From: Deltaproteobacteria bacterium ADurb.Bin207
GTDB taxonomy: Bacteria > Myxococcota_A > Polyangia > Polyangiales > Polyangiaceae
Length of the DNA: 64,000 nucleotides
Direction: 5' to 3'
Assembly (NCBI GenBank): GCA_002070115.1
Contig: MWCO01000008.1
Coordinates: 1-64,000 of the forward strand
Shown here: piece after piece, positions 31,813 to 58,800 of the stretch
How the letters are laid out: each line of letters opens with the position of its first letter
How positions within the stretch are numbered: the first letter of the stretch is position 1
Notes under the pieces: generated by a model
Seen by the model: only the letters and a program-made list of their open reading frames with translations
Told to the model about the DNA's origin: nothing
Databases searched by the model: none
Translations under genes and position numbers: made by a program

Positions 31813-31912
31813 TCCTCGTTCCTCCTTCCCCTTACTTCGGACACATCGGTCCCCGTGTTGCGTTGTATCTGCACCAGTTCCGGCAACGCTTGCGCTACCA
31901 TGCCCTCGAAGC

Positions 31913-33100: not shown

Positions 33101-33116
33101 TCTACGCTGTTGGCTC

Positions 33117-37440: not shown

Positions 37441-37568
37441 GCTCTTTTCGAGCACCTCCCCAATGAATGCTACCTGTCCAGGCTTGGAGGCTCAACCAAC
37501 ATATCCCAAACACGAGCAGCTTTCTGACTTTGCGATGCTACAAACCCCAGCTACGCTCTTGTCTCACA

Positions 37569-38255: not shown

Positions 38256-38300
38256 ACCATCCCGTCCACGACATTGCTGCCACTGCCTAAGTAGGCCTAC

Positions 38301-39020
38301 ATGAATATCCTCATGCGCGTCTTTCGATCACGATCCTTTGCATTCCTTCTGTCGATGCCATGTTTCGTCGGCCTATTGACGGAACCACGCATGGCTAGGG
38401 CCGAACAAGAGCAGCACGAAGATCCCGTCGTGCTCAGACCTGCCCCGGATTCCCTCACCAACCACATCGCCATTTCACCCAAAATTGCCTTTATCGTGCC
38501 CACGGGAAGTGCCGAAAAACGCTTTCCACAAAGAGCTTACGTCCAAGCTGGACCATCGTACGGACTGGATCTCGCTTATGGGCTAAGCCGCTATGTCGCG
38601 TTACAGGCACGATTCGAATACGGCATGCTGTCGGCCAATGATCAATGTCCCAACGGCGGAACCTGCGAGGCAACGACCCTCGCCTTCGGCGCTGGCGTCG
38701 ATTACCACCTGGTTCATGGTGCCGCGTTCGACCCGTGGCTGCGCGCAGGAATGGGTTACCGATGGACACGATTCGATCTGCGCTGGGAGGGAATCAACCG
38801 CGATCGAGCTTACGCTGGGCTTGATTGGCTCCACCTCGCCATCGGAGGTGATTGGTATCCCCATCCCATGATCGGTTTAGGCCCCTTTTTCGCGCTCGAT
38901 ATCGGCTCCTATCAGGCGCGTCCCGACTCACCCCCCCCTGGAACCTCAGGACCAGCGCAGGCAACCGTCCATACCTTCGTTTCCCTCGGACTTCGGGCCG
39001 TTTTCGATCCGATGCGCTGA
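38301..39020 (+). CDS. Predicted outer-membrane beta-barrel protein
   Basis: A 239-residue protein with signal region MNILMRVFRSRSFAFLLSMP ending near RMARAEQ. Strand-like segments follow: ISPKIAFIVPTGSAEKRFPQ, AGPSYGLDLAYGLSRYVALQ, ARFEYGMLSANDQC, FDPWLRAGMGYRWTRFDLRW and GLGPFFALDIGSYQA. The plan matches a small outer-membrane barrel. One Cys pair (DQCPNGGTCEATTL) may form a loop disulfide. Probably co-transcribed with the preceding barrel. Small barrels also partner the TPR lipoproteins of gliding and Nfs machines, so a link to the convergent cluster is possible but unproven. Confidence 0.75.
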   Translation: MNILMRVFRSRSFAFLLSMPCFVGLLTEPRMARAEQEQHEDPVVLRPAPDSLTNHIAISPKIAFIVPTGSAEKRFPQRAYVQAGPSYGLDLAYGLSRYVALQARFEYGMLSANDQCPNGGTCEATTLAFGAGVDYHLVHGAAFDPWLRAGMGYRWTRFDLRWEGINRDRAYAGLDWLHLAIGGDWYPHPMIGLGPFFALDIGSYQARPDSPPPGTSGPAQATVHTFVSLGLRAVFDPMR

Positions 39021-39104: not shown

Positions 39105-42100
39105 TCAACCGATCGTCAAGCCAAGTGCTTTGCGCACCGCGAAGTACTCATTCGAAACCGAGAACACGATCATCTCGGTAATTTTGTCTTCCGGCGTGAG
39201 ATCTCCAGGAACCTGTGGCTCGATGGATAGGATTTTTCTGGCGATTTCAAGGTCGCCACATACGACCAGACCCGCTCGACACGCCGTAAGTTCGGTCGCC
39301 TGAAGCCACCTTTTCAGATTGATCGCTCCCTTCGTTTCCATGAAGGTGCGAACGACATGTCGAAGCCCTTCCCGATGCTGCGGCTGCATCATCGCGGCAA
39401 GCGTCTTGGCCGTCACGTCCACGTTTTGCGCCATTTCCGGTGGCACCGGAGCATCCGGAAGAACCATCCGCAGTCCCGCAAAGAATAGCTGCGTCAACTC
39501 ACTCTGCGTGGCGAAAATATTCTTGATGTAATGCTCGCCTCGGTAATTCGACAGATGTTTCGCCACGATGAAAGACAACTCATGCGGCGTGAACCCAGAC
39601 AACACGCTTTGACCCGCCACCGACGCAAACGGCATGATGGGCGCCGCGGTCAATCCTCCCTGAATATTCGTATGAACATACAGTTCCGGCGCCGTTATTC
39701 CTAACACCTTCGCCACATGGAAAAACGTCTTCGCAAAGGTGACTGTCGTGGTATGCGCCTCCTGCTTGTATCGCTTGTCAAGCACCGGTAGCTGATTCGC
39801 GGCCTTGAGCTGTTGCATCTTCGCCATCAGCGCCGCGCCGGTGAGCATCTCGAAAATGGACCCAATCAAGGTGTCTTCCGTGCGGTGAAACACGTATTTT
39901 CGCCATGATTCGTTGTCCAACCGACTGCGCACCGGCGGTATGCCCTTGGGACGATAATCTTCGTAAAACTTCTGCTGATCCTCATCGGCCAGATGCAAAA
40001 ACGAAAGGGCGCTGCACATGCACCACGCTTCGTCGAACGCCTGCTTCTGGTAATAAAGCTGGTATAGCGCACGGTAGGGCGCTTTTTGCGTCGGATCCCG
40101 ACGCAGGATTTCTTGTTGCTCCTCGACCGCAAGATCTAGCTGATTGGCTGTCTCGTATAGCTCCGCGAGAATCTGCCTTTCCGTGATGTCCTCGGGCTTG
40201 AGCCTTGAAGCCATGCGGAACGCTTCGATCGCTTCCTTGACCTCGTTGAGACGATCCCGATAAACGATCCCCAGGTTGTGCCAAAGGTTGTACTCAAGGT
40301 CTACCTTGCCCTTGCCCGCAATGCGGTGAAGCATTTTGCGGAACGACCGCTCGAGCTGTTTCCAATCCTTCTGCGACGTAAGGATTTTGTTGATGCGCTC
40401 GAACGCCTCGAGGAAATCCGGATTCAAGTCCAACGCTTCGTTGAACAGTTCCACCGCACGACCAAGATCGTTTTGATCGCGATGTAGTTGCGCCATTGTG
40501 TACAAGTAACGCGCTTTTCGCTCCGGATTGGAGTCCAAGTCCGAAATCGTTTGAATCGTATCGATCATTCGGTCGTAGTTTCGCGTCTTCTGATACAGCC
40601 CGAGAAGCTTGTGCAACAACACATGGTTGTCCGGCTTGAGTTCGAGCGCTTCCTCCAATGTCTCGATGGCTTTCGGAAGGTTGTTTTCCTTCTCCGCCCA
40701 AATGTCACCGACCTCATTGAGCATCGCGAAGCGTTCTTCTGCCTCGTATATGTTATCGAGGATCTGACGCTTGTAGGCGCAAACCTGTTTCCAATCCGAG
40801 AGCCCGGCATAAATGTCCACCATCGCCTCGAGCGTCATTCGGTGCGCATCGTCGATCGCAAGCGCCTTTTCATAGTTGTTGACCGCTTGTTTCAACTGCC
40901 CTTGCTCGCGCTTGATACAGCCGAGCTTGTAGTACACATACGCTCGATCTTCGCGGTCGCTTTCCTCCAACGACGTCAGCACCTTCTGGTAGTTGGACAA
41001 CGCGGCCGCCCAATCGCCCATCTTGAAGCTCACCTCCGCCAACCCACGAATCGTCTCTTGATCCGTCAGGTCCAAGTGGTGCGCCTCTTTGTACGCTTTC
41101 AGCGCTTTGTCATTGTTGCCCAGTTCCGCGGCAACCTTTCCTTGCATCGCATACAATTGATGCAGTTCATATCGCTCGAGTTTTCCCGCGCCCTTCTTCA
41201 ACAACATATCCGCTAGCGGATCCGCTTCAGCCCATCGGCCCACCCGAACGTATTCCTCGAGCAACGGACGTGCAGCGTCTTCATTCTCCGGATCCGCTTG
41301 AAGTGCAAGCTCGTAGGCCTGCACCGCTAAATCATGCTCTTCGAGCTGTTGCTCACGAAGGTTACCCAGTTCCACCAACAGCTTCGACCGCGCACGCGAT
41401 GACTGCGTATGCATCTGCTCTTGGTCCAGATAGCGCGCCGCCTGATCATATTCCGCCGCGTCGATCGCAATCTCCTTCAAAGCAGCCAACGTCAGAAGAT
41501 GGGCCGGATCCAAATCCAACGCCATCTCATAACGTTCTCGCGCCGCCATTCGATCGCCAAGCTGCGTGTCCAGCGCACGACCAATCCGGTAGTACATCTC
41601 CACCCGCTGCGCACCATCCGCCGTCAACTCCGCAACGCGTGTCATGTAATCAATCGCATCCGCAGCGCTTTCCTTTCTCTCATACAGCTTCGCAAGCGCT
41701 TCCAACGCTCCAATGTTCGTATCGTCCAACTCCACGATGCTTTGGTACGCATCGATCGCACGATCCACGTCCTGCACTTCGTCCGAAAACACCTGAGCCA
41801 CGTAACCGTAAAGCTCGATCTTCAAACCCCGATCCAACGTCACAGAAATATGTCGCTCGTAGGTGTTCACCAAGTCCAGCCATTGACGCAACTTCGCGTA
41901 ACACCGCTCCAAACCAACAAGCGCGGGCTCCTGGTTCGGATCGACATCCAAAACCTGCTCATAACGCGACGCCGCCTCGTCAGCCTTCAGGAACTGCTCC
42001 TCGAAGATCGCTGCTACCTTCATCAGCACCTCGATTCGCTCACGTTCCGTTGGAACGACATCGAGCTGCTGCTCGAGAACCTTGATCATCTCCGGCCAAT

Positions 42101-45100
42101 TGCCATGCGCCGCGTGAATCCTCTCCAATCCACGCATCGCAAGAAGATTGGAAGGTTCCGCATCGAGCGCCGCCTCGTAGGCCATCGTCGCCTTGTCGAG
42201 ATCACTCAACGCCGTCTCGTACAACCCCCCCATTCGGACCTGTAGACTCGCTACTTCTTCATACTCATCCTGCTTCGCCACTACCTTGGCCGCTAGGATC
42301 TCCACCAAGTCACGAGTCTGATCCCGCTCCGAGTATATCCGCTCCAATGCCTCCAACGCCGGCAAATGATGAGGATCCACTTCAAGGGCGTTTTTGTAAA
42401 ACACCATGCCCTTCTCTGTCTCACCAAGCTGCTTTTCCAACAACTCGCCAAGCTCAGTCTGTATCTCCTTCCTATCCTTCTCCGACGTCGCATGCTTCAA
42501 CGCTTCCGTCAGCGTCCGACCCAACTCCTGCCATTGCTGATTTTTGCGGTACAAATTACCCATCTGCCGCAGCACCGCCACGTTGGTCGGATCAAGCTGC
42601 ATCACCTTCTGGAAATAAGGCTGCGCATATTGCGCATGCCCCAAATCCTCGCCGTACCACTTCGCCAAACGGAGACATAGCTGAATCACTTTTCCCTGAT
42701 CCTGCTTCTCTTGCTCCGCCTGAAGCCACGTGTTCGCCGTCTGGATCAACTCACTCCAGCGATTCGTCGCCTGCGCCATGCGCTCGAGATACCGAGACGT
42801 CTCATCGTCCCCGTAATCGTCCTCAAATGCTTGCAACAATGCTTCGAAAGCCTGGTTCTTATCATCGACATGCTCCTCGAATACACCGGCAATCTTCCGA
42901 AGAAGCTCCGTGCGCTCCGAGGCCTCTTGCCGCGTCTCCAAACGAGACAAGTACAGCTCAATCAACGGCTCCCAACGCTCCGCCGCCGTATGCAGTTGCT
43001 CCAATGCCAGAAACGCATCATCGTGCGTCGGATCGATTCCCAAGATCCGCTCGAACGCAAGCGTACCCGAATCCCGATCGCCAAGCTGCTCTTCCCAAAT
43101 CCGCGTGACTTCCAATAGCTCACGGATCTGCTCCGCAGGCTCCGGCAATGCCTCCGCCCGCCGCATCTTCACGTCGATGACGTCCGTGTACCGCTCGTCC
43201 TGCCGATAGATGGCCTCCAAAGCGTCGAGCGCCTCAAAATCACCCGGATCTACCTCGAGCAATCGCGTCCATGCCTCCGCCGCATCGTACGGTTGCTCCA
43301 ATACCGTCCCGTACGTGATGCCCAACTCACGGAATATGGACTTCAGCTCCGGTGCCTCCAGATAATCCGACGCCCGATCCACCAAGTTGTGCAACGCCTG
43401 CACAAGCTCATAGGCTTCCTGACGCGTTCGCCAAATATTCGCTATCGCTCGCAACGCATCGACGTTTGCGTAATCGATCTCCAAAACCCGCTGGTAATCG
43501 TCTATCGCCTCCTCATCGCGATTGAGACGAACCAAAAATACATACGCACGACGAAGTCGAATTCGAACACGCTCCTCGTCCGTATCCGCAATGTCGTGTT
43601 GACGCTCCAAAACGTCACACAACTCGGCCCACTGACCTCGACTCTCATACAGATTCGCAAGCGCCCCAAGCGCTTCCACATCCTCCCCTCGGAGATCCAA
43701 TACCCGCTTCCATGTCGCTATCGACGCTTCCACGTCTCCAAGACGCTCCGACGCCAGTCGCGCCATCTTCGCACGAATGTCAGCCTCCTCCATGTCCCCC
43801 ATCGCATTGTCTAGCTGACGCTCATACACCACATTCAAGTCCGTCCACGCTTGCTTGTACTCGTACAAACGCTCGAGGGCCGCGATCGCTTCCTCGTTCG
43901 ATGGATCTAGTTCGTCGAATATCCGACGATATACCCGAATGGCGTCATCGTATCGTTGAAGCTTCTCTTCGTAGACAGCACCTAAGCGTCCGTGAAGCTC
44001 CACCCAATCCACCGGCTCATCAGAGGGACGAAGACGCTGCTCCAATACCTGAGCCAACTCCGCCCATTGCTCCATGGCCTCAAAAATCCGATCCAAATTC
44101 ACCAACGCATCGGAATCCGTCGGATCGACACCCAGCACATAACGATACGTCTCAATCGCGTTGTCTATCTGCTGAAGCTCTTCTTCAAACACTCTCGCAT
44201 GACGCTTTCCAATGGCTTTGCGAACCACCGGGTCCTGCTGAATATCCAGCACGTCCGCATACGCATTGCCAAGACGATCCCACCCGCCGTCCGTATCAGC
44301 CGCCAAGCGCTCTATCTCTTCGCCAATTCTTTCATCCAAAGGAAACTCACGGATCGCACGAATATACGCCTCCATCGCGCGAACCGGATCCAAAAGGTTG
44401 TGCTCATAATCCTCAGCTATCCGGTAGTACATCGCCAACCGCTCATCCGAATCCGTCAGATGTGCGAGCTGCGCCTCATGCACACCCGCCAGCTTCTCCC
44501 ATTGCGCGTTGTCCGTGTACAACGGCTCGAGAACCTCGGCGATCTCCGCCTGCTTGACCCCATTCGCAAATAGCGTTTCCAACGCCTCGAGCGCGGCTTC
44601 GTGCTCCGGCATCGACACAATCACATCCCGGTACGACGCCACCGCCTGATCGATGTCGTTCAAACGAAGCTGATAAACCTGTCCTAACCGGTACCGATAA
44701 TCGAGAACACGATCGGGGTCAGACGTAACCTCCGCCTCCCGAACCAATACCTGCGCCAAATCCCCCCACTGCTCCGTCAGCTCGAACAACCGATCCAACG
44801 AACTGAGCGCTTGCTCGTTCTCCGGAGCTACACCCAACACCTTGCGGTACCGAACCACCGCGTTCGTCAAATCCTCGAGTTGTGTCTCGTAGATCGCAGC
44901 CGTGCGTAACCCCAAGTCCACAAACCAATCCGGATTGTCTTCCAGACGATCCAACTCCCGATCGTACAACGCCGCGGCTTGACCCCAACGATCCGTAAGG
45001 GCCGCCAAACGCTCCAACGCTCCAAGTGTGTCGTGATTCGTATTGTCCAACGACAACGCTCGCGCATACGTGTCGAAAGCCGACGGATGGTCCTGAAGGT

Positions 45101-48100
45101 TGTCTTCATACAACGCCGCTATCCGGTGCAACAACTCAACCTGCAAGTAGGCATCGTCCTGGAATCGTACCTGCACTTCCAACACACTAATCAGCTTCGC
45201 CCACTGCCCCGCCCCATCATAAAACGGCTCCAATACACTGGCCGCCGCCAACGGCTCCCCATCGCCTTGCTTGAGGTTTTCCAAAGCCTGTAACGTCGGA
45301 TCATGATCCGATTGCTGCATCAAGATGTCACGGTACAACTCGATCGCACGAGGCACGTCCTGCAAGTGCTTCTCGTACAACTCCGCGATTCGATACTGAT
45401 ACGAAATCGCCTCCGCAGCATCCATCGTAAGCTCCGACTCATGCTGCAATACCGTCAATAGCTCCGCCCATTCCCCCGACGCCTGATACAATACGTCCAA
45501 CCGTCCAAGAGCTTGTAAGTCGTCCGGATCCAACTCCAACACCCGTTGGTACGTGTCGATCGCTCGCGATACATCCCCAATCTCGCGCTCGTACACAGCG
45601 CCCATCTGATAGTAAATCAGCTTCTTTTCCTCGGGATCAAACACCAAATCCACCTTCTTGGTGTACGCGCCAAGAAGATCCTCCCAACGCTTCAACCCCA
45701 AGTACTGACCGATCAATGCATCCACGGCCTGCACATCATCCGGATCCGCTTCCAGCGCCAACAAATATACCTTGATGGCTTCCTCCGGACGATTGAGCAT
45801 CTCCTCCTCGATCGCCGCTGCCTGGAACAACGCCGTTTTCTTCTCCATCGGATCGTCGACGATCTCAGCCTTCGTCTGAAGAACAGCAGACAAATCCGCG
45901 TATCGCTCAACCCCACGGAACAACCCTTCGAGCGCTTCCGCCGCCGATAGACTCGTCGGATCGATACTCAACACCTTCCGATAATGCTTCACCGCATTAT
46001 CCACATCCCCCAAATCCTGCTCATATACCTTGGCGGCCATCGAAAATAGCTGGCTCGCCAAAAAACCATCCTGCTGCGCCTGGGCTAGCCGCTCAAACAC
46101 ATGCGCAAGATCCGAAAACCTCGAGGTCGCCCGAGCAAGACGATCCAACGCCTCCTGCGTCGCTTCGTGTGCTGGATCCTCGGCCAATGCCCGTGCCAAT
46201 GTATCGAAAGCGGCCGACAAATCCCCCGCCGCATCCTCGTACAAGGAAGCTATCTGATGCAATAACTCGACTCGCCGAACCGGATCATCGGTGCGACGCA
46301 CCTGAACCTCATGCACCCCGATTAACTTCGCATAATCGCCCGTCTGCCGATACAGCGGCTCCAAAATCTCCGCAATCATCAACTCGAAGTCCGCGTTGGA
46401 GCCCAATCGCTCGAGCGCTTGCAGAGCAGATTCGTTGCCCATGTCGCGGGTCAATACCTGATGGTAAATGTCCACCGCCTGCTCGATCTGCCCCATCTTC
46501 GACTCGCGCAACGCTCCAAGACGAAGCATCAACGCCAATTCGTCTTCGTCGGTGACCGCAAGCCGTAACTGGGACTCGAGGTTGTCGGCTAACTCAAACC
46601 ACATCTCCTGACGCGAATACAACGCGTCCAATGCCTCCAACGCCACTTGACTCGTCTCATCCAGCGCAAGCACCTCTTGATAGGCCGCAATCGCGTCCGA
46701 AGGACGACCCAAACGAGTTTCGTAGACCTGCGCCATCTGCGCGTACATCTTCTCCCGATCCGCAATGTCCTCCATCAACTCGATGCGCTTGCGGTACACA
46801 CCAATCAAATCCTCCCAGCGCTCCGTGCGCCCATACAACGCCTCCAACGCCTCCAACGCTTCCTGATCCGCAGGATCCAAGGAAAGCACATGCCCATAAC
46901 CCGCCGCCGCAGCGTCTACCTTGTCCAGACGCTCCTCTATCCTCGCCAGACGAAGCCAATACGACCGCGCCAACTCCACGTCCGTCAAACTCGTCGCGAT
47001 CTCCGAAATGATCTCCTCCAACTTCGTCCACTGCTCCGATTCCTGCGCCAATGCCTCCAATTCATCACGCGCCTCGGTGTTCGACGGATCCTCCTTCAAC
47101 GCTCTTGCTTGCGCAGAAAATGCTCGCGCCAAATCCCCAAGCTGCCCTGAAGCCGTCCGCGAAATACGACGCAAAATATCAACTCTCGTCGCCACGTCGT
47201 CCTGCGTCGACGCCAGCACTTCCAACACCCCTAGCAGCTTCTCCCAATCCTCACGCACTTCATAAATCGGATCGAGAATCTGTGCCGCCTCGGCTGCCAA
47301 CTGCTCGTTCGACAGCATCGCCTCCAACGCTCCCCGCGCACCGTCGTGATGTTGGTCGACAAACAAAATCTCACGGTAGTTGTTCAACGCCCCCATCGGG
47401 TCCGATAGATGCGCCTCGAGCGTCGATCCAAGCCTGAACTTCAGATCGATCAACTCCTCTTCCGTGACGTCCAATTCAATGAGCCTTTGCAACACGTCCG
47501 CGTAACTCGCGAAATCCCCCTGCCCACGATACAACCCATCCAACGCACGCAAGGCCCGCATGTCCGTCGGATCCTCTTCCAACACCGCTACGTACGTCTC
47601 TATCGCACGCTCCGGTTGCCCCATCTCCGTCTCGTACAACCCAGCTATCGAGTACAATACTTGACGCCTCTCGTCGAAATCGGCCGTCAACTCACGCTTC
47701 TTCTCGTAGATCCCCAGAAGCTCGTCGTACCTCGATGTCTGACGATACAAACTCTCGAGCGCCGCGATCGCCTCAGGATTCTCGCTGTCCGCCTCGTACA
47801 CCGATCGAAACTCCGTCAACGCGTCGTCGACATTGTTCACTTCGTCGACAAGAACTCGACCAAGCTTCAAATGAAGCGAGATCGCGAGTTCCTGCTCCCC
47901 ATCGCCCTGCGCCACTTCAATGGCACGACGATACGATGCGATGACGCTGTCCCACTTTCCTATCGCCTTCGCCAAACGTTCTACATCATCACGACACGTC
48001 TCATCCCCAGGCGATATCTCGAACGCCGAAAGATAGCGCTCGAAGGCACGTTCCGGGTCCCGTACCTTCCCTTCGTAAAGCTGAGCTACCTCACGAAGAA

Positions 48101-50498
48101 GCTCGAGCTTCGTGAAGTCGTCCTCTTCATGCGAAAGCTTTACCTCCAATACCCTCGCAAGACCCTTGGCGTTGTCCGCCGATTGATAAATCGGAACCAA
48201 GGCCTCGGCCGCCGCCAAGTGATTCTCATCGAGCGCAAGCACCTTCTCCAACGCTCGTGCCGCACGATCCGGCTTGTCCTTCTTGTCATTCCAAAGCTGG
48301 GCCACCTTCATCAACAACGAAATCTTCCCAGCAGAATCCGTCTCCTTGCCCTCCTCCGACTCCAACACACGAATGAATTCATCCCACTTGCCAGAGTCCG
48401 AATAGAACGACTCCAAATCGTCCCATCGACGAAGCGTAATGTACTTCCGTCGAAGCTGCTCCTGCGCTCGACGATCATTCGGCTGTAGCACGAGCAGCAG
48501 CCGCCACGCTTCGACCGCCCCCTCCTCGTTTTGTAGCCGATCCCCGTAGATCGTCCCCAACTTGGTCAACAACTGAATCTTGGCCTTCTCGTCGTACGTG
48601 CTCTCCACTTGCTTTTCGAGAACGACAACCAATTCCTCGAAACGCCTCGCGTTCTCCAACAATGGCGCCAACGCATCCAACGCCACCCGATTGTCCGGCT
48701 CTACCTCGAGAACCGTGTTCCACAAGTCAATGCACATGTCCGGTTTACGAAGGCGCTTCGTCGCTACATCCGCAATGTCAATCAGTTCCGCTACACGACG
48801 ATCCATCGGAAGCCCATTCGCTTCCGTCAAACGAAGCCGGATCAAACTTTCCCAATCCCGACGCTTCTCGTACATCTGAAGCAAGTATTGAACCGCTTGC
48901 GCATTGCCCGGATCGTACTCGATCACTTTTTCATACGCCTTGATGGCCTCTGCTTGATTCGAAAACTTGGTGACGAACAGATCCGCCGCTCGTTGATACA
49001 AATCAATCTTCTCTTCGACATTCGGAACCAAGTCCGCCAAGGCCATGAGCGTTCGCACCAACTCGTTGAAACGCTTGCTCCCCTCTTGCGTGACGGCCGC
49101 TTGACGCAGTTCCGCTATTTTTTCAGCATCCCCAGCCGACAGCGGCGCCGATTGCTCCTCGGCTTCCGCCTCTTGCGCGCTGTCCAATGGCTCGTCTTGA
49201 ACTTCTTCTTGCTCAGCAACCTCAACCGTCACCTCCGCTTCGGCCTCGGCCTGCGCCGCTAGGATATCCGATGGCTGCTCTACCGACTCGCCTACTTCCA
49301 CCTGGACGTCCGCCTCCGCGTCCGCACTCACCAGCGGAGGTACCGGCGAAATCTCCGCAGGTGCCGATACCGGCACCGGCTTCAAGGACTGACCAATCTG
49401 CGCCTCGAACGCCACCAGGCTCGGATGCCCATCCGCAAACGACGCGAGCTGCTCGAAAGCACGCTGCGCTTCCAACATATTTCCAAGCTTCTGCCAGTTG
49501 ATGAGCCCAAGCTGAGACAACAGAAACGTGCGGCTTCCCGGTTGTCGGGCTTGCTCAAACGCTTTCGTCGCAAGCTCGACCACCTGTTCCCACGCTCCAT
49601 CACGCGTTCCATAAACCTCACGTAAAAATAGAAACGCTGCCTCGTTGTCGGGATCGTACGAAAGCGCTTCCTGCGCAAGCTTCGCCCCAAGATCCAAGTT
49701 CTGATGTCGCGTCGCCCATCGAAGCCCAAACAGAAAGGCCAACTCAGCCCGCCGATCCGCTCCCTCCGTGGCGTCCAATACCGAACGCTGCAACGCCGCG
49801 ATCTCGTCCGTCCGATCCGCTTCGACCAGCAACGCCTCCAACAACGTCAATACTTGAATATTGGTAGGATCCGCACGGAAGGCCTGCGCCAACATCCCTT
49901 CCATCTCATCGGGAGCAAATCGTTTCACGATCCGACCGGCGCGAAGGAATAGACGCGCTTTTTCCGATGGCTCCGCCGCTTCGTGCGCCGTGCGCAACAA
50001 GAAAGCCACCCGATCCTGCCACCCACCCGTGTCGATCTGAACGTCCTCCAAACAAGCACTCGCTTCCGCATTGTTGCCCTTCGACGCCCCCAACGCCCGC
50101 GCGTAGGTCGACATCGCCCTCTCATAGTCGCCCTCGTCCGAAAGGACGTCGCCCATTTCGAGAAGCAATTCGGCAACCCGTGCCGGTTCGGATTCTACCT
50201 TCAGCTCCAAATCGAGGAGCTTCTGCACCATGTTCAACTTACCAAGACGCCAGTAGATGCGGCGAGCATCTGCTAGGGCTTCCACCAACGCTGGCTGAAG
50301 CTTGAACGCGTCTTGGAAATGCTTCAGTGCCTTGACACTCTGCAAGAACTTGCCATCAAGAAGCCGGCCGATCTGCAGATGAAGGTGAGCCTTGTTGGAT
50401 GGCTGAGACTCCGTTGCGATCGCTTTTTCAAGCTCCTCGAGCACCCCCTGCCAATCATGCACCACTTCGAGCTGCTTCACACGCTGCTGCAAATCCAT
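39105..50498 (-). CDS. gltI: Giant cytoplasmic TPR protein, AgmK/GltI-like, with degenerate M48-type C-terminus
   Basis: About 3,797 residues from ATG 50498, chosen for the ribosome site GAGGGA six bases upstream (GTG 50543 adds 15 residues without one). There is no signal peptide, so it is cytoplasmic. Most of the chain is a solenoid of TPR-like repeats of about 38-40 residues with pattern Y-x-x-x-L-x-x-DP-x-x-x-x-A-L-x-x-L-x-x-LY (for example VLELDPDDLQALGRLDVLYQ). An Ala/Glu/Val-rich linker interrupts them at about 371-458. The last 270 residues resemble an M48 metallopeptidase, but HExxH is replaced by KHLSN (3647-3651) and the downstream E-x3-D by E-x3-C (3736-3740), so it should be inactive. 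Length, place downstream of a GltG-like gene and lack of signal match AgmK/GltI of Myxococcus gliding, a TPR platform. Last gene of the operon. Confidence 0.85.
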   Translation of the reverse strand: MDLQQRVKQLEVVHDWQGVLEELEKAIATESQPSNKAHLHLQIGRLLDGKFLQSVKALKHFQDAFKLQPALVEALADARRIYWRLGKLNMVQKLLDLELKVESEPARVAELLLEMGDVLSDEGDYERAMSTYARALGASKGNNAEASACLEDVQIDTGGWQDRVAFLLRTAHEAAEPSEKARLFLRAGRIVKRFAPDEMEGMLAQAFRADPTNIQVLTLLEALLVEADRTDEIAALQRSVLDATEGADRRAELAFLFGLRWATRHQNLDLGAKLAQEALSYDPDNEAAFLFLREVYGTRDGAWEQVVELATKAFEQARQPGSRTFLLSQLGLINWQKLGNMLEAQRAFEQLASFADGHPSLVAFEAQIGQSLKPVPVSAPAEISPVPPLVSADAEADVQVEVGESVEQPSDILAAQAEAEAEVTVEVAEQEEVQDEPLDSAQEAEAEEQSAPLSAGDAEKIAELRQAAVTQEGSKRFNELVRTLMALADLVPNVEEKIDLYQRAADLFVTKFSNQAEAIKAYEKVIEYDPGNAQAVQYLLQMYEKRRDWESLIRLRLTEANGLPMDRRVAELIDIADVATKRLRKPDMCIDLWNTVLEVEPDNRVALDALAPLLENARRFEELVVVLEKQVESTYDEKAKIQLLTKLGTIYGDRLQNEEGAVEAWRLLLVLQPNDRRAQEQLRRKYITLRRWDDLESFYSDSGKWDEFIRVLESEEGKETDSAGKISLLMKVAQLWNDKKDKPDRAARALEKVLALDENHLAAAEALVPIYQSADNAKGLARVLEVKLSHEEDDFTKLELLREVAQLYEGKVRDPERAFERYLSAFEISPGDETCRDDVERLAKAIGKWDSVIASYRRAIEVAQGDGEQELAISLHLKLGRVLVDEVNNVDDALTEFRSVYEADSENPEAIAALESLYRQTSRYDELLGIYEKKRELTADFDERRQVLYSIAGLYETEMGQPERAIETYVAVLEEDPTDMRALRALDGLYRGQGDFASYADVLQRLIELDVTEEELIDLKFRLGSTLEAHLSDPMGALNNYREILFVDQHHDGARGALEAMLSNEQLAAEAAQILDPIYEVREDWEKLLGVLEVLASTQDDVATRVDILRRISRTASGQLGDLARAFSAQARALKEDPSNTEARDELEALAQESEQWTKLEEIISEIATSLTDVELARSYWLRLARIEERLDKVDAAAAGYGHVLSLDPADQEALEALEALYGRTERWEDLIGVYRKRIELMEDIADREKMYAQMAQVYETRLGRPSDAIAAYQEVLALDETSQVALEALDALYSRQEMWFELADNLESQLRLAVTDEDELALMLRLGALRESKMGQIEQAVDIYHQVLTRDMGNESALQALERLGSNADFELMIAEILEPLYRQTGDYAKLIGVHEVQVRRTDDPVRRVELLHQIASLYEDAAGDLSAAFDTLARALAEDPAHEATQEALDRLARATSRFSDLAHVFERLAQAQQDGFLASQLFSMAAKVYEQDLGDVDNAVKHYRKVLSIDPTSLSAAEALEGLFRGVERYADLSAVLQTKAEIVDDPMEKKTALFQAAAIEEEMLNRPEEAIKVYLLALEADPDDVQAVDALIGQYLGLKRWEDLLGAYTKKVDLVFDPEEKKLIYYQMGAVYEREIGDVSRAIDTYQRVLELDPDDLQALGRLDVLYQASGEWAELLTVLQHESELTMDAAEAISYQYRIAELYEKHLQDVPRAIELYRDILMQQSDHDPTLQALENLKQGDGEPLAAASVLEPFYDGAGQWAKLISVLEVQVRFQDDAYLQVELLHRIAALYEDNLQDHPSAFDTYARALSLDNTNHDTLGALERLAALTDRWGQAAALYDRELDRLEDNPDWFVDLGLRTAAIYETQLEDLTNAVVRYRKVLGVAPENEQALSSLDRLFELTEQWGDLAQVLVREAEVTSDPDRVLDYRYRLGQVYQLRLNDIDQAVASYRDVIVSMPEHEAALEALETLFANGVKQAEIAEVLEPLYTDNAQWEKLAGVHEAQLAHLTDSDERLAMYYRIAEDYEHNLLDPVRAMEAYIRAIREFPLDERIGEEIERLAADTDGGWDRLGNAYADVLDIQQDPVVRKAIGKRHARVFEEELQQIDNAIETYRYVLGVDPTDSDALVNLDRIFEAMEQWAELAQVLEQRLRPSDEPVDWVELHGRLGAVYEEKLQRYDDAIRVYRRIFDELDPSNEEAIAALERLYEYKQAWTDLNVVYERQLDNAMGDMEEADIRAKMARLASERLGDVEASIATWKRVLDLRGEDVEALGALANLYESRGQWAELCDVLERQHDIADTDEERVRIRLRRAYVFLVRLNRDEEAIDDYQRVLEIDYANVDALRAIANIWRTRQEAYELVQALHNLVDRASDYLEAPELKSIFRELGITYGTVLEQPYDAAEAWTRLLEVDPGDFEALDALEAIYRQDERYTDVIDVKMRRAEALPEPAEQIRELLEVTRIWEEQLGDRDSGTLAFERILGIDPTHDDAFLALEQLHTAAERWEPLIELYLSRLETRQEASERTELLRKIAGVFEEHVDDKNQAFEALLQAFEDDYGDDETSRYLERMAQATNRWSELIQTANTWLQAEQEKQDQGKVIQLCLRLAKWYGEDLGHAQYAQPYFQKVMQLDPTNVAVLRQMGNLYRKNQQWQELGRTLTEALKHATSEKDRKEIQTELGELLEKQLGETEKGMVFYKNALEVDPHHLPALEALERIYSERDQTRDLVEILAAKVVAKQDEYEEVASLQVRMGGLYETALSDLDKATMAYEAALDAEPSNLLAMRGLERIHAAHGNWPEMIKVLEQQLDVVPTERERIEVLMKVAAIFEEQFLKADEAASRYEQVLDVDPNQEPALVGLERCYAKLRQWLDLVNTYERHISVTLDRGLKIELYGYVAQVFSDEVQDVDRAIDAYQSIVELDDTNIGALEALAKLYERKESAADAIDYMTRVAELTADGAQRVEMYYRIGRALDTQLGDRMAARERYEMALDLDPAHLLTLAALKEIAIDAAEYDQAARYLDQEQMHTQSSRARSKLLVELGNLREQQLEEHDLAVQAYELALQADPENEDAARPLLEEYVRVGRWAEADPLADMLLKKGAGKLERYELHQLYAMQGKVAAELGNNDKALKAYKEAHHLDLTDQETIRGLAEVSFKMGDWAAALSNYQKVLTSLEESDREDRAYVYYKLGCIKREQGQLKQAVNNYEKALAIDDAHRMTLEAMVDIYAGLSDWKQVCAYKRQILDNIYEAEERFAMLNEVGDIWAEKENNLPKAIETLEEALELKPDNHVLLHKLLGLYQKTRNYDRMIDTIQTISDLDSNPERKARYLYTMAQLHRDQNDLGRAVELFNEALDLNPDFLEAFERINKILTSQKDWKQLERSFRKMLHRIAGKGKVDLEYNLWHNLGIVYRDRLNEVKEAIEAFRMASRLKPEDITERQILAELYETANQLDLAVEEQQEILRRDPTQKAPYRALYQLYYQKQAFDEAWCMCSALSFLHLADEDQQKFYEDYRPKGIPPVRSRLDNESWRKYVFHRTEDTLIGSIFEMLTGAALMAKMQQLKAANQLPVLDKRYKQEAHTTTVTFAKTFFHVAKVLGITAPELYVHTNIQGGLTAAPIMPFASVAGQSVLSGFTPHELSFIVAKHLSNYRGEHYIKNIFATQSELTQLFFAGLRMVLPDAPVPPEMAQNVDVTAKTLAAMMQPQHREGLRHVVRTFMETKGAINLKRWLQATELTACRAGLVVCGDLEIARKILSIEPQVPGDLTPEDKITEMIVFSVSNEYFAVRKALGLTIG

Positions 50499-50579
50499 GT
50501 ATCCCTCGGTCGGTTCGGGAAGATAATTACGGCGGTTAGCCACACCTACGGGGCGAGCTATTCAGCTCGAATTCTCCCT

Positions 50580-51488
50580 TTACGGTCCCTCGAGCTTGAC
50601 AAGCAAAGCGATCGCTTGCTCGCATTGCTCCCTGTATTTTTGCGCTGATCCACCTTTACACGCCTGCGCTTGGAATTTCTTGAGCATCTGAATCGCTTGC
50701 GACTTCTTCGGCGGGTTCAGCACCGCATAAGTGCTGCCAAGGTTGAACAGAATCTCAGGATTGTCCTTGCCGCCCAACTCATTGGCCGTTTCCAACGCTT
50801 TTACCATGCTTGGCATGTCATTCTGAAACTGCGCCACGCTCGCAAGCAAGACATACATGTTGAACTTCGCCTTGCTTTCATCCGCCGCAAACTTAACCCC
50901 CTGCTCAAGAACTCCCTTCGCTTGATCGAAGTAGTCCAAACGAATGTATAGGTCCGCTAGCGGCGCGTAAAACGATCCCTCGTTGGGCGCATGCTGAATC
51001 GCTTTGGTATAGTTTTCCAAAGCCCCCTGCTCGTTGTCCAAAAACAGCTCCACCAACGCTAACTCGAAGTAACAATGCGCAAATCGAGTATCCGCCTCGA
51101 TGCACTTGACCAAGGGCTCTTTCGCCTCTTCCCACGCACTGCGCTGCTTGGACTTCGAAGCCACCTGCACCAGCGCGTAACCTCGCTCATAGTGATAGTT
51201 GGCATACTGCGGTGCAGCTTGCGTCGCTCGGGCAAGCGTAGAGGCAACCTTCTCCCACTCCTCCTTCTTCCGATACGTCGTCGCTAGCATGTAAATGATC
51301 TCATGGTTGCTCGGGTCCAACTGCGTCGCCGCCTCGTATTTGTCGATCGCAGCGTCATAGGCGCCCTGTTTTTTCAACAGCGTGCCCTCGTTGGCCAGGT
51401 TGACGGCTTCGATCTTCTCGCGACCGCACCCCGAAAGAGCCACAACGAAACCAAAGAACATCATCACGCACAACGTGCTGAGCTTCAT
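50580..51488 (-). CDS. TPR lipoprotein of the gliding-type cluster
   Basis: A 302-residue protein from ATG 51488 (MKLSTLCVMMFFGFVVALSGC; acylated Cys21 followed by Gly). The longer frame to 51500 adds four residues. Six or so TPRs follow (LANEGTLLKKQGAYDAAIDK; IIYMLATTYRKKEEWEKVAS; LALVELFLDNEQGALENYTK; APLADLYIRLDYFDQAKGVL). Gly after the Cys favours transport to the outer membrane, with TPRs facing the periplasm. It lies between the GltG-like gene and the giant TPR gene, 81 bp from the latter. At this place M. xanthus has other glt genes, and no firm ortholog is claimed. Confidence 0.85.
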   Translation of the reverse strand: MKLSTLCVMMFFGFVVALSGCGREKIEAVNLANEGTLLKKQGAYDAAIDKYEAATQLDPSNHEIIYMLATTYRKKEEWEKVASTLARATQAAPQYANYHYERGYALVQVASKSKQRSAWEEAKEPLVKCIEADTRFAHCYFELALVELFLDNEQGALENYTKAIQHAPNEGSFYAPLADLYIRLDYFDQAKGVLEQGVKFAADESKAKFNMYVLLASVAQFQNDMPSMVKALETANELGGKDNPEILFNLGSTYAVLNPPKKSQAIQMLKKFQAQACKGGSAQKYREQCEQAIALLVKLEGP

Positions 51489-51731
51489 CTGTTCTGCCAC
51501 CTTTCCAACGAGCAGAGTTCAACTCCAATCCAGACCGAACCAACGCCTCGAGAAGCGAAAGTACGCGGCGCGGCTACAGCCTACCAACCAGTTCTATTCG
51601 AAACAGCAATAAGAAAGCCACACGCAACCGCGCACCCCGTATCACGCACAGGGCGCGGGAAGTCTACGCGGACGCGGCATGAAAAGTCTAGGGAGATCGG
51701 GAGTGAGAAGGAACCTGGCCCCGCGCCAAGC

Positions 51732-53855
51732 TCATTGACCAGGAGAAAACATGATCGGGTAGACAACCGTCACGATGCCACCCTCCGGCTGCGGAAACGA
51801 CAAGCCATAGTAGGCTCGCGTCACACACGAAACCACTGCCGGATCCGGAAGATCCGACCCCGCGTTGCCCACGTTCGACACCGACCCGTCACGGCCAATC
51901 ACGAACCGTACCGATACACGACCCTGCAAGTTCGGGTTGTTGCGAAGACCATTTTCATAGCACAACCGGAAACGCCCATAGTTCTGACGCACGATTCGCT
52001 GAATGACCTCCGGAGGCAAACGCCCACTCACCGTCGTCGCTCCCATCCGAACTTGAGGCGGCCTCGTCCTGTGCGAACCACCAAGACGCCCGTGCCCAGA
52101 GCCAAATCCCTGCCCCGTCCCGGTTCCCGCACCATGACCTATCGTACCAATCGAACCAAGACCGATTCCTTCGCCACGACCACCACCCCCTTCGCCAATA
52201 CCCGATAGCCCCAAACCACCGGCACCAAACGCATCACCGATGGAGTCTCCCCACATATTCCCACGCGCACTGATGGGATCCGTACCCAACGAGTCGTCGC
52301 GCCCCCACGGAGCCGTAGGCGCATTCGGATCACCTCCCGCTCCCGTGTTCAAGAGCCCAATCATACCGAATTCAGCCGCCTCCCGAAGTGCCGCCGAACG
52401 CGCAATATGCGGATCCGGGTTGTCCTTCGGCCCCGCCACACCATAACGACGATTCGTGTTGCGCGAGTTCGGATCACCCATCGACCCTTCCTCACCCTTC
52501 GCCCTCGTACCCGTCCCACCTTCCTTGTTGTCCGGGTTGTCCTCCGCTACCTGATCCGTCTCCTTCTGCTCCATCTCACGCTCGGCAGAAGCATTGAGAT
52601 ATTGCTGGATCAAGTAGAGCTGATCCTTGCTCATCGCTCCTTCATCCGTCAGACCCAACGGCGGCATGAAAAACGCCATCGCCGACAGCAACCCAATATG
52701 AACCGCAAGCGACAATCCGACATATAAGGCGGTCGACCAATCACGGGACGACGAGAATATCCCGGCCGGTGCTTTGCGACCGGCGTTGACCGTCGCTACC
52801 TGAAACACCAACCCACTGCCCGGTGCCGCCCCAGGAAGCTCGAGCCGCGCCTTCGTGCCAAGAGGCAACGGAATCTGCATCGCCCCCGAATACTCCGCGC
52901 ATGGCTGAGCGCCTCCACTCTGAAGCACCTCCTCCACCTTGAGCTTGCCTTTGCCCGGTACATCCACGAACCCCTTCGCCCCAGGAAGTACGACCGCCGC
53001 CACACTGCCCCCACTCACCACAACCACCGGAACTCGCGTCGCTCCCAGTTTTTCGGCAGGAATGAAGTAGTCATTGACAAGATTCTTGCCCTGCTCTTCG
53101 CCCACATAAAAGCTTCGAGGCGGGGATAAGTGAGAGACGTGCAACACAACGTCCCCCCACATCACCATCACCTCCACCGCCGGAACGTTCACCTCTACCT
53201 CGTCCGGGTTCACGTCCGGCCCGCTCTTCGTCAACACATAGCGAACTCCCCCTTCCCCTTCCGCACCAACATCCCCTCCCCCAAACGGATCCGCCGCCGC
53301 GGCAAATGGATTCGGCGAAGCAAACGCAAACGGATCCGCACTCGCTCCTCCGAAAGGATTCGCACCCGCTCCGTCGGCAAAAGGATTCGATACCGGCGGC
53401 GCCACCGGTCGCGCGGGAGCCGGTGCAGGAGCCGGCGCAGGGGCAGCAAAAGGATCCACCGGTCCAGGCGAAGCGGCAAACGCATCGGCCGGAGGCGGAG
53501 GCGCTGCCACCACCGGCGCGGGCGGCGGCACAAACGCGGGCTCCGCTACCGCATCTTGCGCCGACTCCAACACGATCAACGTGCCACCCACCTGAATCTG
53601 ATCGCCCGGTCGTATCTTGCACTTGTTGACCTGCGCACCATTCACCACTGTCCCAGGCTCGTTTCCCAAGTCAATGAGCGTAATGTCATCCGTCGACGCT
53701 ACCTCAATCACTGCATGCATCCGCGAAGCAAGATCGTCGTCGATCCGCAAATGACTTTTCGGATCCTTGCCGACCTTGACAATGTCCTGCGTGATCGATT
53801 CACGACGCACTAGTTGGTCGCCTTGGTACAATGCGAACGTTAGAGTAACCTTCAT
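51732..53855 (-). CDS. gltG: FHA-TM-AgmX/PglI C-terminal (TonB-like) protein, GltG-like
   Basis: A 707-residue protein from ATG 53855 (GTG 53873 also in frame). The cytoplasmic N-terminal FHA domain (about 20-95: VKVGKDPKSHLRIDDDLASR; DLGNEPGTVVNG) binds phosphothreonine. A Pro/Ala-rich linker (about 108-170, PPAPVVAAPPPPADAFAASP) leads to a beta-rich region and a single membrane helix (about 374-396, ALYVGLSLAVHIGLLSAMAF). Periplasmic Glu/Gln- and Gly-rich stretches precede an AgmX/PglI C-terminal domain (about 605-707: VIQRIVRQNYGRFRLCYENG; RVSVRFVIGRDGSVSNVGNA) with a Cys pair. This is the architecture of GltG/PglI, which spans the inner membrane in the Myxococcus gliding complex and passes force to periplasmic partners. 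Confidence 0.85.
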   Translation of the reverse strand: MKVTLTFALYQGDQLVRRESITQDIVKVGKDPKSHLRIDDDLASRMHAVIEVASTDDITLIDLGNEPGTVVNGAQVNKCKIRPGDQIQVGGTLIVLESAQDAVAEPAFVPPPAPVVAAPPPPADAFAASPGPVDPFAAPAPAPAPAPARPVAPPVSNPFADGAGANPFGGASADPFAFASPNPFAAAADPFGGGDVGAEGEGGVRYVLTKSGPDVNPDEVEVNVPAVEVMVMWGDVVLHVSHLSPPRSFYVGEEQGKNLVNDYFIPAEKLGATRVPVVVVSGGSVAAVVLPGAKGFVDVPGKGKLKVEEVLQSGGAQPCAEYSGAMQIPLPLGTKARLELPGAAPGSGLVFQVATVNAGRKAPAGIFSSSRDWSTALYVGLSLAVHIGLLSAMAFFMPPLGLTDEGAMSKDQLYLIQQYLNASAEREMEQKETDQVAEDNPDNKEGGTGTRAKGEEGSMGDPNSRNTNRRYGVAGPKDNPDPHIARSAALREAAEFGMIGLLNTGAGGDPNAPTAPWGRDDSLGTDPISARGNMWGDSIGDAFGAGGLGLSGIGEGGGGRGEGIGLGSIGTIGHGAGTGTGQGFGSGHGRLGGSHRTRPPQVRMGATTVSGRLPPEVIQRIVRQNYGRFRLCYENGLRNNPNLQGRVSVRFVIGRDGSVSNVGNAGSDLPDPAVVSCVTRAYYGLSFPQPEGGIVTVVYPIMFSPGQ

Positions 53856-53943
53856 CCCTGCCTGACCTTTCACCGGACGACAACCTCAGCGCCAGCCGCC
53901 CGTAAGCTGACACCCGAAACTCCTCGTTTGCGCCTGTCGCCCG

Positions 53944-54402: not shown

Positions 54403-55863
54403 TTACTTGGCACCGGCGGGCGGGGGCGGAGGAGCAGCAGGAGGAGGCGACGGCGGAGGGTTTTTCTTCGCTTCTGCTTCGGCCTTTTTGGCCTCCGCCT
54501 CGGCCTTTTGACCTTCTCGAATGAACTCAATGATTTTTTTCATGTCTTCTTTTCGTTCATTCGCGTTTTTTACGGCCGCTGCATATTCCGGAGCCGAGCC
54601 GGCTTTCGCAATGAACGAATCGAACACCCGCGCGGCGTTCTCATAAAGGCTAATCTTTTTTTCCTCGTCAGGAGCATATTTCGCCTTGAATTCCTGAATC
54701 AGGATCGCCTCGTTGAAGTACGCCTCCGGCCGCGACGCATCAATCTGCTTGGCTCGCTGCAACTCCGCATCCGCTTCCGCCATCTTGGCGTCCAAGTTGC
54801 TGTCGTTGATTTGACCACGAATCGCCAGCGAGAGCCCCAACCGCCCTTCATAGTTGTTCGGCTGCATCTTCAACGCCGCACGATACGCTTCTTCCGCCTT
54901 GTCAAACCCACGGAACGACAAGTTGACCGCCGCATAGTTCATCTGCGCTTCAAAAAAGTTCGGGTCCAACGTCCGCGCCGTGTTGAATGCCTGCACCGCG
55001 TTGTTGATATTGCGCTGCTCGACTTGAATCAGACCTAATGTATTGTAAATAGGCCCGTATTTTGAGTTTTTCCGAATGGCCTGAGAACAGACGAGCGCAG
55101 CCAAATCAAGCATCTGGCCGCTCAGTTCCGCCTTCTCCGCATCCGCCGCCATCAATCGTCGACGCTTGCTGCCAGTTTCCCGCTGAGCACGAGCACGCGC
55201 CTGGTTCATGTAATACAAGGCGAGCTGATTGAACGCCGGCATGTAGCTGTCATCGATCGCCAGCGCTCGCTGCACGTTGAGTTTCGCGCAGTCCATATCG
55301 TCTTTGCAGCCCGATGCCCCCGTCGGTCCGTTTCGCTTCATTTGAAGCATCGCAAGGTTCACCAAAGCATCGACGTTTTGAAACTTGGCTTCCACCACGG
55401 CATCCGTGAGTTTCGAAATGGTCGGATCCAAAACCGAATCGCCCTTTTCCCGATACTCGTATAGGGCGAGCTGCACTTTGGCCCGGTGGAACGCGGAATT
55501 CGCGGATAATGCGGCTTGAAACTGCGCCTTCGCTTCGTCATGTTTCGCGCAGCGTTGGTACGCTAGGCCCGCATTGTACGATGCCTCCGGCAACCCTTTG
55601 CCCGTAGCATCTTTCTGCTCCTTGACCGCGTCCAAAAACTGCTGCGCCACACTCGTACACGAGGCGTCGCTCCAATCCGCTTTTTCATCTCGACGAACCA
55701 TCTCATTGAGCGCTTCGTCGAATTTTTTTGCCGCTACCTGCACAACAGGGCCGTGCATCCCTTGCGGCCCCGAAGGCGTTTGGGCGGGAGTCGTGCTTTT
55801 GCCACCACAAGCCGCTGCGAACGCGATGACCGCAGCAAGCCCGATCAGTCTATGCGTTTTCAT
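54403..55863 (-). CDS. gltE: TPR lipoprotein, GltE/AglT-like
   Basis: A 486-residue protein from ATG 55863 (GGAGGAG ribosome site; the frame to 55896 overlaps the previous gene's end). The lipoprotein signal is MKTHRLIGLAAVIAFAAAC, followed by Gly-Gly, favouring the outer membrane. TPRs span about 80-400 (YNAGLAYQRCAKHDEAKAQF; AFNQLALYYMNQARARAQRE; YNTLGLIQVEQRNINNAVQA; MNYAAVNLSFRGFDKAEEAY). The C-terminus is a charged helix (AEAKKAEAEAKK) with a Pro-rich end (PPPSPPPAAPPPPPAGAK). Size, lipidation and order after the GltD-like gene match AglT/GltE of M. xanthus, an outer-membrane TPR part of the gliding complex. It starts 29 bp after the GltD-like stop. Confidence 0.78.
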   Translation of the reverse strand: MKTHRLIGLAAVIAFAAACGGKSTTPAQTPSGPQGMHGPVVQVAAKKFDEALNEMVRRDEKADWSDASCTSVAQQFLDAVKEQKDATGKGLPEASYNAGLAYQRCAKHDEAKAQFQAALSANSAFHRAKVQLALYEYREKGDSVLDPTISKLTDAVVEAKFQNVDALVNLAMLQMKRNGPTGASGCKDDMDCAKLNVQRALAIDDSYMPAFNQLALYYMNQARARAQRETGSKRRRLMAADAEKAELSGQMLDLAALVCSQAIRKNSKYGPIYNTLGLIQVEQRNINNAVQAFNTARTLDPNFFEAQMNYAAVNLSFRGFDKAEEAYRAALKMQPNNYEGRLGLSLAIRGQINDSNLDAKMAEADAELQRAKQIDASRPEAYFNEAILIQEFKAKYAPDEEKKISLYENAARVFDSFIAKAGSAPEYAAAVKNANERKEDMKKIIEFIREGQKAEAEAKKAEAEAKKNPPPSPPPAAPPPPPAGAK

Positions 55864-55892
55864 CGGTGCTCTCCTCCGTTGGGCGTTCGCGA

Positions 55893-58800
55893 TCACTTCT
55901 TTGCCTCTTCTTCCTTCGTTGCCGCTGGCATGACCACATACGGCTCACCGCCAAGCTGCAACGGATAAGGCTTATCATTCAATCCGGAACCCACGAGGTC
56001 CGGACTCCCGCGAAACTCGTCCACCTTGTGGAATTCCGCCTTGTAGTTCTCCGCCAACCACTCCTCACAGGACCGAGAATAACGGTCGAAGTATTGGTGC
56101 TTGACCGATAGCCCTAGGCACGTCGTAAACGCCCCCTTCGCACGCTGTTTGATAGGCTCGCTCGCCGCATCGAGACTCTGATAGTACACGCCCCGCAACT
56201 CATCGTCGCTCTTCATCCACGCGGGAATCGGCGCACGACGGAAGTCCGCGACGAACTCGGCCCACATCGTTCCGACTGCAGCACCCGCGGCGATGACCCA
56301 CTGGGGAGGTGGCGTAGGCTGAAGAGTAAGGATTTTTTGATACTCTTGGTCCGCAGCCTCGATGGCCGCCTTCTTCTTGTCGACCCAGTCCTTGACCTTA
56401 GTATCGATATGCTTCTTGACGTTTTCAGATTCCTTCTTGCGCTTCGCCATCTCCTCTTCGAACTCCCACGAGTCCATGAGTTCAGGCTTCTTGGTAGAGG
56501 GCTTGTAGGCACCGCTCGAGTACTCAGGGAACTTGATCGGGTCCACCGTCTTGCGACGTTTCTCCTCCGCAAAGAAGAAGTACGCTTCACCGACGGCTGT
56601 CAGGGCTTTGCCAAGGCGACGAGTTCGTCCCGCCTCGGGTTCGTCTTTCGCATCGTTGAGGACCGAATCGGCCGCCTGTTTGGGGTTTGCCCATAGGTCC
56701 ATGACTTTTTTGTATTCCGGAGCGGCACTGGCCTCACGTTTCATCTGCACATAGATGTTGCCAAGCATCGCGTGCGCTTGCACACGCACGTCGTAGGCGG
56801 CGTGCTTGTCGATGAGGGCGATGTTTTTGGTGAGTTGCCCCCGGGCATCCTCCCACTTTTTCTGTTCCACGTAGTAATTGGCGATCGCGAACGCTATCTG
56901 TGCGTTTTGAACCGGTTTTCTTGCGCCGAAGTACTGCTGGAACAGCTTCGCGTTCTCGAGGGCTTTGGTGTCATGTCCAAGTCCCAAGCGAAGCACGACC
57001 GAGTCGGACAAGGCGGCGTCGGCCTTTTCATTCCAAAAATCGAGTGATTCTTTCGCGGTCGGCTTCGGCTTTTCTCGCGCGAACTTCTCGTACCAATCCG
57101 CAGCTTTGTCATAGACCGCGATGGCCTGGTAGTTGCCTCCGATTTCATACACGGCCTTCCGAGCCAACGGGCTTTCCGTCATCTTGTTGTCAGGATTGAG
57201 CAGGATCTGACGGCACTGAATCGCTTTGGCAATCAATCGACCTGCTTGGAACGCCCTGCAAGCGTTGTACACCACCTCATCGAGCCGCTCGCATTGCATT
57301 TCCTTGTTTGATTTGACCGCTTCTTCGCCGTACTTGCGCCACAGGCCAAGATAAGCGTTGGCAGCCGCTTCGTATTGACGAAGCGAACCGGCGCCACCCT
57401 TGTCCGCGAGCTTGACCATGTTCTCAGCCTTGAGACGTTCGATGTCGCATTGAATGCGGGTGAGTACTGTGCATTGATCCTCATTGGCGGCCGCTCGCGC
57501 ACCCGTGCAATACAGCCCAATGAGTTTGGGAACATCCTCACCCATCTTGTCGAAGCAATCAGGACGCGGCGGGTCGACTTTGTCGCCCAACACGTTGATG
57601 GATTCGAGATAAAGCTGGGCCGCGAAAATGCCAGCCTCGTGGTCCGCGTGGTTCATCGCCACGTCTCGGAACGCAAGAGCCGCCTCCTCCCAATGCTGCG
57701 CTTCGAAGTAAGTCCGCGCGCGCGCGTATTTGACCTCGACGTATTGATTCTTGCCTTCCTTGTCGGAATCCGCGGGCTTGATGTAGCAAACGTAGCGGTT
57801 GAAAGCCGTAATCATGCCCTTCTGCCGCTCGGAGAACTCCTTCTTCTTGTACTTATCCGCATCAGAGGCTTTCTCTTCCTTCTTGGCACCAGGCATCAGA
57901 CCGCTGCCCTTGCGATCCTTGCCCCCCTTATGCTCTTCGTCGTAGATGTTTTGGTAGCAAAGCACCGCGGCGAACGCTGCTTCCGGAGCTTCCGCGCTCG
58001 TTGGATTTTCCGCTACGACAGCGTCGAAAGCGGGGCCACATTGATCCCATTTCTTCTGGGCGTAGAGCAAGTCCGCCCGGTGATATTTGATTTTGTAAAT
58101 CGTCGGCCAATCCTCTTTTGCGATGCGCGGGAATTCGAACTTCGCAAAGTCTTGCGCCGTGAAGTTTTCAACGACTTGCCCGTAGAGATAATCGGCGAGA
58201 GCCATGGTCTTGGGATCGTTGGTTCCTCGAACCCCTCCCGAGCCGACCGCCTCGAGATGCCACGCCATCGCCGTCTCACTCAGAAGCCCAGCCGTGGCAT
58301 TGGCACACTTGAGTTGCGTGTCCCCCGTGCGCCCCTTGGACTTGAACTCTTTGTATACGCCCACCTGACCGTCGAGCACCTTTTTGATCTGGTCCTTGTT
58401 TCCAGACTTCATCGCCAGCGTGGCCTCAGCGATGCGCGCGTGATACTGGCAATATCGCGGCCCCCGATCACGCTTCATCAAATCCTGATACAAGGCGATC
58501 GCCTCGGCATAATAGCCAGTGTCCAGATAGTTCTGCCCAAGCTGGTCCATCATATCGAAGGTCTTGCTTTCCTCATTCGGTTTGTCGCCCGACAACCCCT
58601 TGAAGAAGCCATACGCCGCCTCCGGCCGACCGGATAACGCGTACACGGGAACCAAGTCTTTTCGGGCTGCCACCGCCAACGGACCAGCGTTCGGCAGGTT
58701 GGGGTACTGCTCGGCAAACTCGATCGTCTTTTTGAAGTGCGTCAACGAACGCGGAAAATCTTCCTGGTTCCAGTTGACATAGGCGAGCTTGTAATGGGCG

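Follow-up and report, generated by a model that had tools for sequence, protein, structure and literature searches.

A giant TPR protein with a discrete C-terminal domain

The window analysed here, a stretch of 64,000 nucleotides of Deltaproteobacteria bacterium ADurb.Bin207 (contig MWCO01000008.1), encodes a giant TPR protein that had been described in a preliminary way as ending in a dead M48-like metallopeptidase domain. The question raised by this locus is whether such a domain is indeed present and, if so, what a peptidase fold deprived of its zinc site could be doing at the tip of so long a TPR scaffold. The gene and the parts of its product that bear on this question are the following:

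39105..50543, minus strand: giant TPR protein, GltI/AgmK-like, 3812 aa from a GTG start; a single open frame with Pfam TPR matches
39108..39908, minus strand: C-terminal pseudo-M48 domain, residues 3546-3812 (267 aa), delimited by hhalign to M48, an AlphaFold model and a fold search
39546..39560, minus strand: degenerate zinc/catalytic motif, KHLSN in place of HExxH, residues 3662-3666, aligned with HECGH of an L001-type M48 peptidase (described below)
39279..39293, minus strand: degenerate second site, E3751-x3-C3755 in place of E-x3-D, within ATELTACRAGLVVCGDLEIA; the acid is retained

Many Pfam TPR families matched the two ends of the giant protein when these were tested, and its last 267 residues are non-TPR. 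An alternative ATG start lies at residue 16 (50498), and no signal peptide was apparent by eye at the N-terminus, MANRRNYLPEPTEGYMDLQQRVKQ. The landmarks FTPHELSFIVA and GEHYIK, as well as the two degenerate motifs that had been reported in place of HExxH and E-x3-D, were all found in the frame, the landmarks in the end domain itself. The interval first assigned to the domain, 39105-39660, covers only its last ~184 residues, or two thirds of it; the residue numbers first given, 3530-3797, fit a count from the ATG at residue 16.

The C-terminal domain has an M48-type fold

An alignment of 85 homologous domains was compared by hhalign with one of 21 true M48 peptidases from the same bacterial order, found with PF01435. 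The comparison yielded a probability of 97.1 and an E value of 7e-11 over 177 columns, in collinear order across the domain, KHLSN pairing with HECGH and E-x3-C with E-x3-D; a narrower sequence set gave a probability of 95.8. The profile score was 77.7, as against 14.9 with one of the alignments reversed and at most 17.7 in 40 column-shuffled controls. The profile match to the L001-type M48 peptidases (309 aa, with HECGH and EITCDRA), which occur in the window's genome and in its order, extends over the whole domain, spanning the HExxH helix, the E-x3-D helix, a RAGLL-xx-D stretch and the C-terminal helices. These peptidases stand alone and have an intact zinc site, whereas the TPR-fused domain has none.

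The AlphaFold2 model of the domain (72 sequences in the alignment) reached a pLDDT of 93.6 and a pTM of 0.91, and three strands are still predicted ahead of the old active-site helix. When this model was searched with VIA-align, the top 18 rows were all M48, M56 or minigluzincin structures (Z 5.1-7.3), among them:

Ste24p: Z 7.3, rmsd 8.4, 193 aligned
ZMPSTE24: Z 7.0
3c37: Z 6.5, rmsd 5.5, 185 aligned
BepA: Z 6.4, rmsd 4.8, 149 aligned
BlaR1: Z 6.3
selecase: Z 6.0
HtpX: Z 5.3

Foldseek also placed M48 structures at the top, with Ste24p as the best match, at E values >0.07; it returned no match with E <0.001. As the Z scores are middling, with a maximum of 7.3, we read the fold search as backing the profile result and not as sufficient in itself, and the family assignment therefore leans on the profile comparison. 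Neither Pfam nor NCBIfam matched any family to the window's domain; Pfam searches with the 85 members individually gave scattered chance matches, PF01435 being absent among the 25 families listed, and single-sequence and profile searches of PDB sequences with the domain returned nothing relevant. Together, the profile comparison and the predicted structure, two of the checks that the preliminary description had proposed, confirm the M48-type metallopeptidase fold of the C-terminal domain.

HExxH is missing from every sampled copy of the domain

HExxH was found in none of the 130 copies of the domain that were gathered from Myxococcota genomes. The same was true of the 80 named loci of the genome collection, a set that overlaps with the 130 copies and includes Polyangium fumosum DSM 14668, Labilithrix, Sandaracinaceae, Kofleriaceae and Lujinxingia vulgaris, and of all eight copies in the window's own genome. 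The comparison with orthologues that had been proposed at the outset showed the loss to be general among the sampled relatives. At the position of the first zinc ligand K or R stands in 117/130 copies (R 65, K 52); that of the catalytic glutamate is occupied by H in 57 and the third position by Y in 55, both being varied in the rest. The acid of the second site (residue 3751) is retained as E or D in 123/130 (E 77, D 46), and position 3755, the D of E-x3-D, holds D in 23 copies, N in 23 and C in 18. All three marks of an active M48 peptidase (PF01435) that were looked for, namely HExxH, E-x3-D and a match to the Pfam model, were missing from the window's domain.

A basic residue at the old histidine position and an acid at the second site occur jointly in 112/130 copies, and the association between the two positions over the 130 copies is not significant (Fisher p 0.15); one might guess at a salt bridge between them in place of the zinc. 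The most conserved residues are R3756, G3758, D3764, S3797 and R3804. Since these largely correspond to scaffold residues of the active cousins, their conservation marks no specific interface.

A Glt-like cluster with the giant gene in the place of GltI/AgmK

The giant gene is the last of a six-gene cluster, in which it is preceded by five genes:

50580..51500, minus strand: 306-aa TPR protein with a lipoprotein-like N-terminus; a homologue adjoins the giant gene in 19/20 genomes
51732..53873, minus strand: GltG-like protein with an N-terminal FHA domain (PF00498, E 1e-12) and, by eye, a TonB-like C-terminal tail
54403..55896, minus strand: GltE-like TPR lipoprotein, 497 aa
55893..59648, minus strand: GltD/AgmU-like TPR protein, 1251 aa
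59654..61348, minus strand: 564-aa TPR protein, the first gene of the conserved cluster

Order and strand of these five genes are conserved in 18 of the 20 genomes that were compared from across the phylum, counting one in which the homologue of the 497-aa protein was not distinguished from that of the 306-aa one; in one further genome, outside the 18, only the 306-aa neighbour is retained beside the giant gene. In M. xanthus the corresponding order is gltD (TPR, 1191 aa), gltE (TPR, 471 aa), gltF, gltG (FHA and TonB, 640 aa), gltH, gltI/agmK and gltJ, with gltI/agmK listed at 4132 aa and with TPR only (PMC3169522); elsewhere the length of GltI/AgmK is given as 3,812 aa (PMC9120999). Set against Table 1 of PMC3169522, the cluster agrees in the kind and order of its D, E, G and I genes, which supports the GltI label, and the position of the giant gene accordingly agrees with the AgmK/GltI type proposed for it. 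With GltI/AgmK (MXAN_4863) the giant gene shares a very large TPR product with no apparent signal peptide and its place as the last gene of a gltD-gltE-gltG-like series; it differs in being preceded by the gene for the 306-aa TPR protein, and gltF, gltH and gltJ were not seen in the window's cluster. None of the names in the gltD-J list of PMC3169522 corresponds to the 306-aa protein.

No Myxococcaceae genome was seen among those searched here, in which the best identity to M. xanthus MglA (PDB entries) was 84%. In families lacking the domain, GltD-like proteins match only weakly, at E values of about 1e-10 to 1e-22, and we therefore make no claim of strict co-occurrence. An M48 or other C-terminal domain on GltI/AgmK was not described in the literature searched, in keeping with the preliminary description.

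On the other side of the giant gene, and convergent with it, two small outer-membrane beta-barrel-like proteins are encoded in tandem (37467-39020). Beyond them lies a gene for a protein with a radical-SAM cysteine motif that by eye resembles lysine 2,3-aminomutase (34478-36265), flanked by glycosyltransferase-like genes (31748-34304 and 36256-37455).

Distribution, descent and selection

A profile search found the domain in 213/377 Myxococcota genomes, of which about 194 by hand count match at E <=1e-20, the weak matches including stand-alone M48s. In the tree, all 130 dead copies fall on one side of a single branch that separates them from active M48s (SH-aLRT 88), and a branch around the active and stand-alone M48s has a support of 99; the root region is uncertain because of long branches. 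As all dead copies share one side of that branch, the simplest reading of the sequences would be a single loss of the motif before the family spread.

Loss of HExxH is also seen in a family of stand-alone M48-like proteins (f20; L246, L247, L248, L250 and L252), mostly as GRLCGHI, with the second-site helix [EV]-[IV]-T-[SA]-D-R-A-G retained. Unlike the domain studied here they are not fused to TPR, and they are placed among the active M48s on the tree, so that their loss is independent of that in the TPR-fused domain.

Among close relatives, 13 pairs had a measurable dS, and in these the dN/dS of the domain was 0.03-0.27, which argues that the domain is under selection. Identity in the domain was 54%, as against 59% in the TPR body, within Polyangiaceae, 39 vs 44% across other orders and families, and 27 vs 33% to more distant members. 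Judged by these substitution patterns, the pseudo-M48 domain is no decaying remnant and is maintained by purifying selection.

The module recurs on other TPR proteins

At least eight pseudo-M48 copies, all of them C-terminal, are present in the window's genome. Besides that of the giant protein, seven lie in open frames that range from 696 to 2400 aa and match TPR, the 2387-aa frame being the one with a weak match. One of these proteins, of ~1830 aa, combines an N-terminal Ser/Thr kinase with TPRs and the pseudo-M48 domain (L285:7077-12572, G000 contig C5), and its copy falls in a clade of 23 tree rows (support 99) that consists mostly of ~1800-aa frames from across the class. One could propose, tentatively and as a somewhat unlikely generalization, that the pseudo-M48 is a general Myxococcota docking module. 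A common partner would then be recognized by its retained but zinc-free cleft, so that the giant TPR scaffolds of the Glt type and the TPR-bearing Ser/Thr kinases would be tied to one structure of the cell envelope or the cytoskeleton.

Two tandem genes of the same genome (L287:7983-18271 and L287:18965-19999, G000 contig C63) encode proteins of 1805 and 1647 aa with divergent pseudo-M48 ends. The gene after this pair starts, by eye, with an MJ0042-like zinc ribbon, a feature known from GltJ/AgmX.

A probable protein-binding end-cap and its alternatives

The reading that we prefer, with a probability of roughly 0.7, is that the pseudo-M48 domain of the GltI/AgmK-type scaffold is a non-catalytic and most likely protein-binding end-cap. 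This role is inferred from the conservation of the domain, from its recurrence on further TPR proteins and from how pseudoenzymes behave in general; binding or scaffolding is common among pseudometallopeptidases, according to a review that makes no mention of M48 (PMC11266112). In the proposed course of events, an M48 domain related to the stand-alone M48 peptidases that these bacteria still have would have become joined to a TPR protein early in the history of Myxococcota. Before the family diversified it would have lost the catalytic glutamate together with its two zinc-binding histidines, and purifying selection would since have kept it as a non-catalytic module. The domain would then carry out no proteolysis; its former substrate cleft and beta strands may dock a partner, either a component of the Glt-type envelope machine or a further scaffold molecule. 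GltI has been described as an intracellular scaffold that couples the Agl motors and GltG to MreB (PMC13104615), and a scaffold of this type would presumably be cytoplasmic here as well.

A precedent for the proposed docking is the M48 peptidase BepA. There the client LptD is bound by an edge strand adjoining the active site, in a chaperone-like role as well (PMC8423444), and BepA thereby offers a concrete model for binding without cleavage, in the present case probably through the old cleft. BepA likewise has an M48 fold and TPR in a single chain, and is among the structures matched above. It is, however, an active and periplasmic enzyme with the peptidase N-terminal and the TPR C-terminal, whereas the window's protein has the reverse order, a dead peptidase and a TPR part of >3000 aa.

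A different explanation is that the domain is no more than a structural cap, which shields the hydrophobic end of an extremely long TPR solenoid and has no specific binding. It would account for the position of the domain, which in proteins of widely differing size and function always follows the last TPR directly and forms the very C-terminus. Against it, a 267-aa enzyme fold would be a costly cap, no such end domain was shown by the other TPR proteins of the same cluster, and in conservation the domain falls little short of the TPR body; we consider this explanation unlikely. Much less probable is a retained activity, through a rearranged metal site or other chemistry. The second-site acid is widely kept, and together with the complete E-x3-D of 23/130 copies it might permit some weak metal binding, but the glutamate and both histidines of HExxH are absent, K or R has replaced the first ligand in 117/130 and the other two positions vary.

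We give still less credit to a purely superficial likeness to M48, in which case the domain would have an unrelated helical fold. The lack of a Pfam M48 model among the families listed for the 85 members and Z scores below 8 would be in keeping with it; the profile score far exceeds that of every shuffled control, the alignment is collinear over the entire domain, and the top of the fold list is wholly M48, M56 or minigluzincin. That the loss of the motif reflects faulty sequencing or assembly of the window's genome has a negligible probability and found no support, the frame being open to its end and the loss being shared by orthologues in many independent assemblies.

Implications

The original observation proved right and broader than first claimed, in that a pseudo-peptidase of the M48 fold forms the C-terminal module of these giant TPR scaffolds. 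GltI/AgmK has been called a large scaffold of the gliding motor, on which TPRs have so far been the sole annotation. A conserved, selected and discrete domain at the end of a GltI/AgmK-type protein provides a small, testable handle, which could be expressed separately, used in pull-downs and cleanly deleted. The finding also adds a phylum-wide family of pseudo-M48 domains that Pfam has missed and that lies outside the pseudometallopeptidase review (PMC11266112), and it points to a module common to the giant scaffold and to TPR Ser/Thr kinases.
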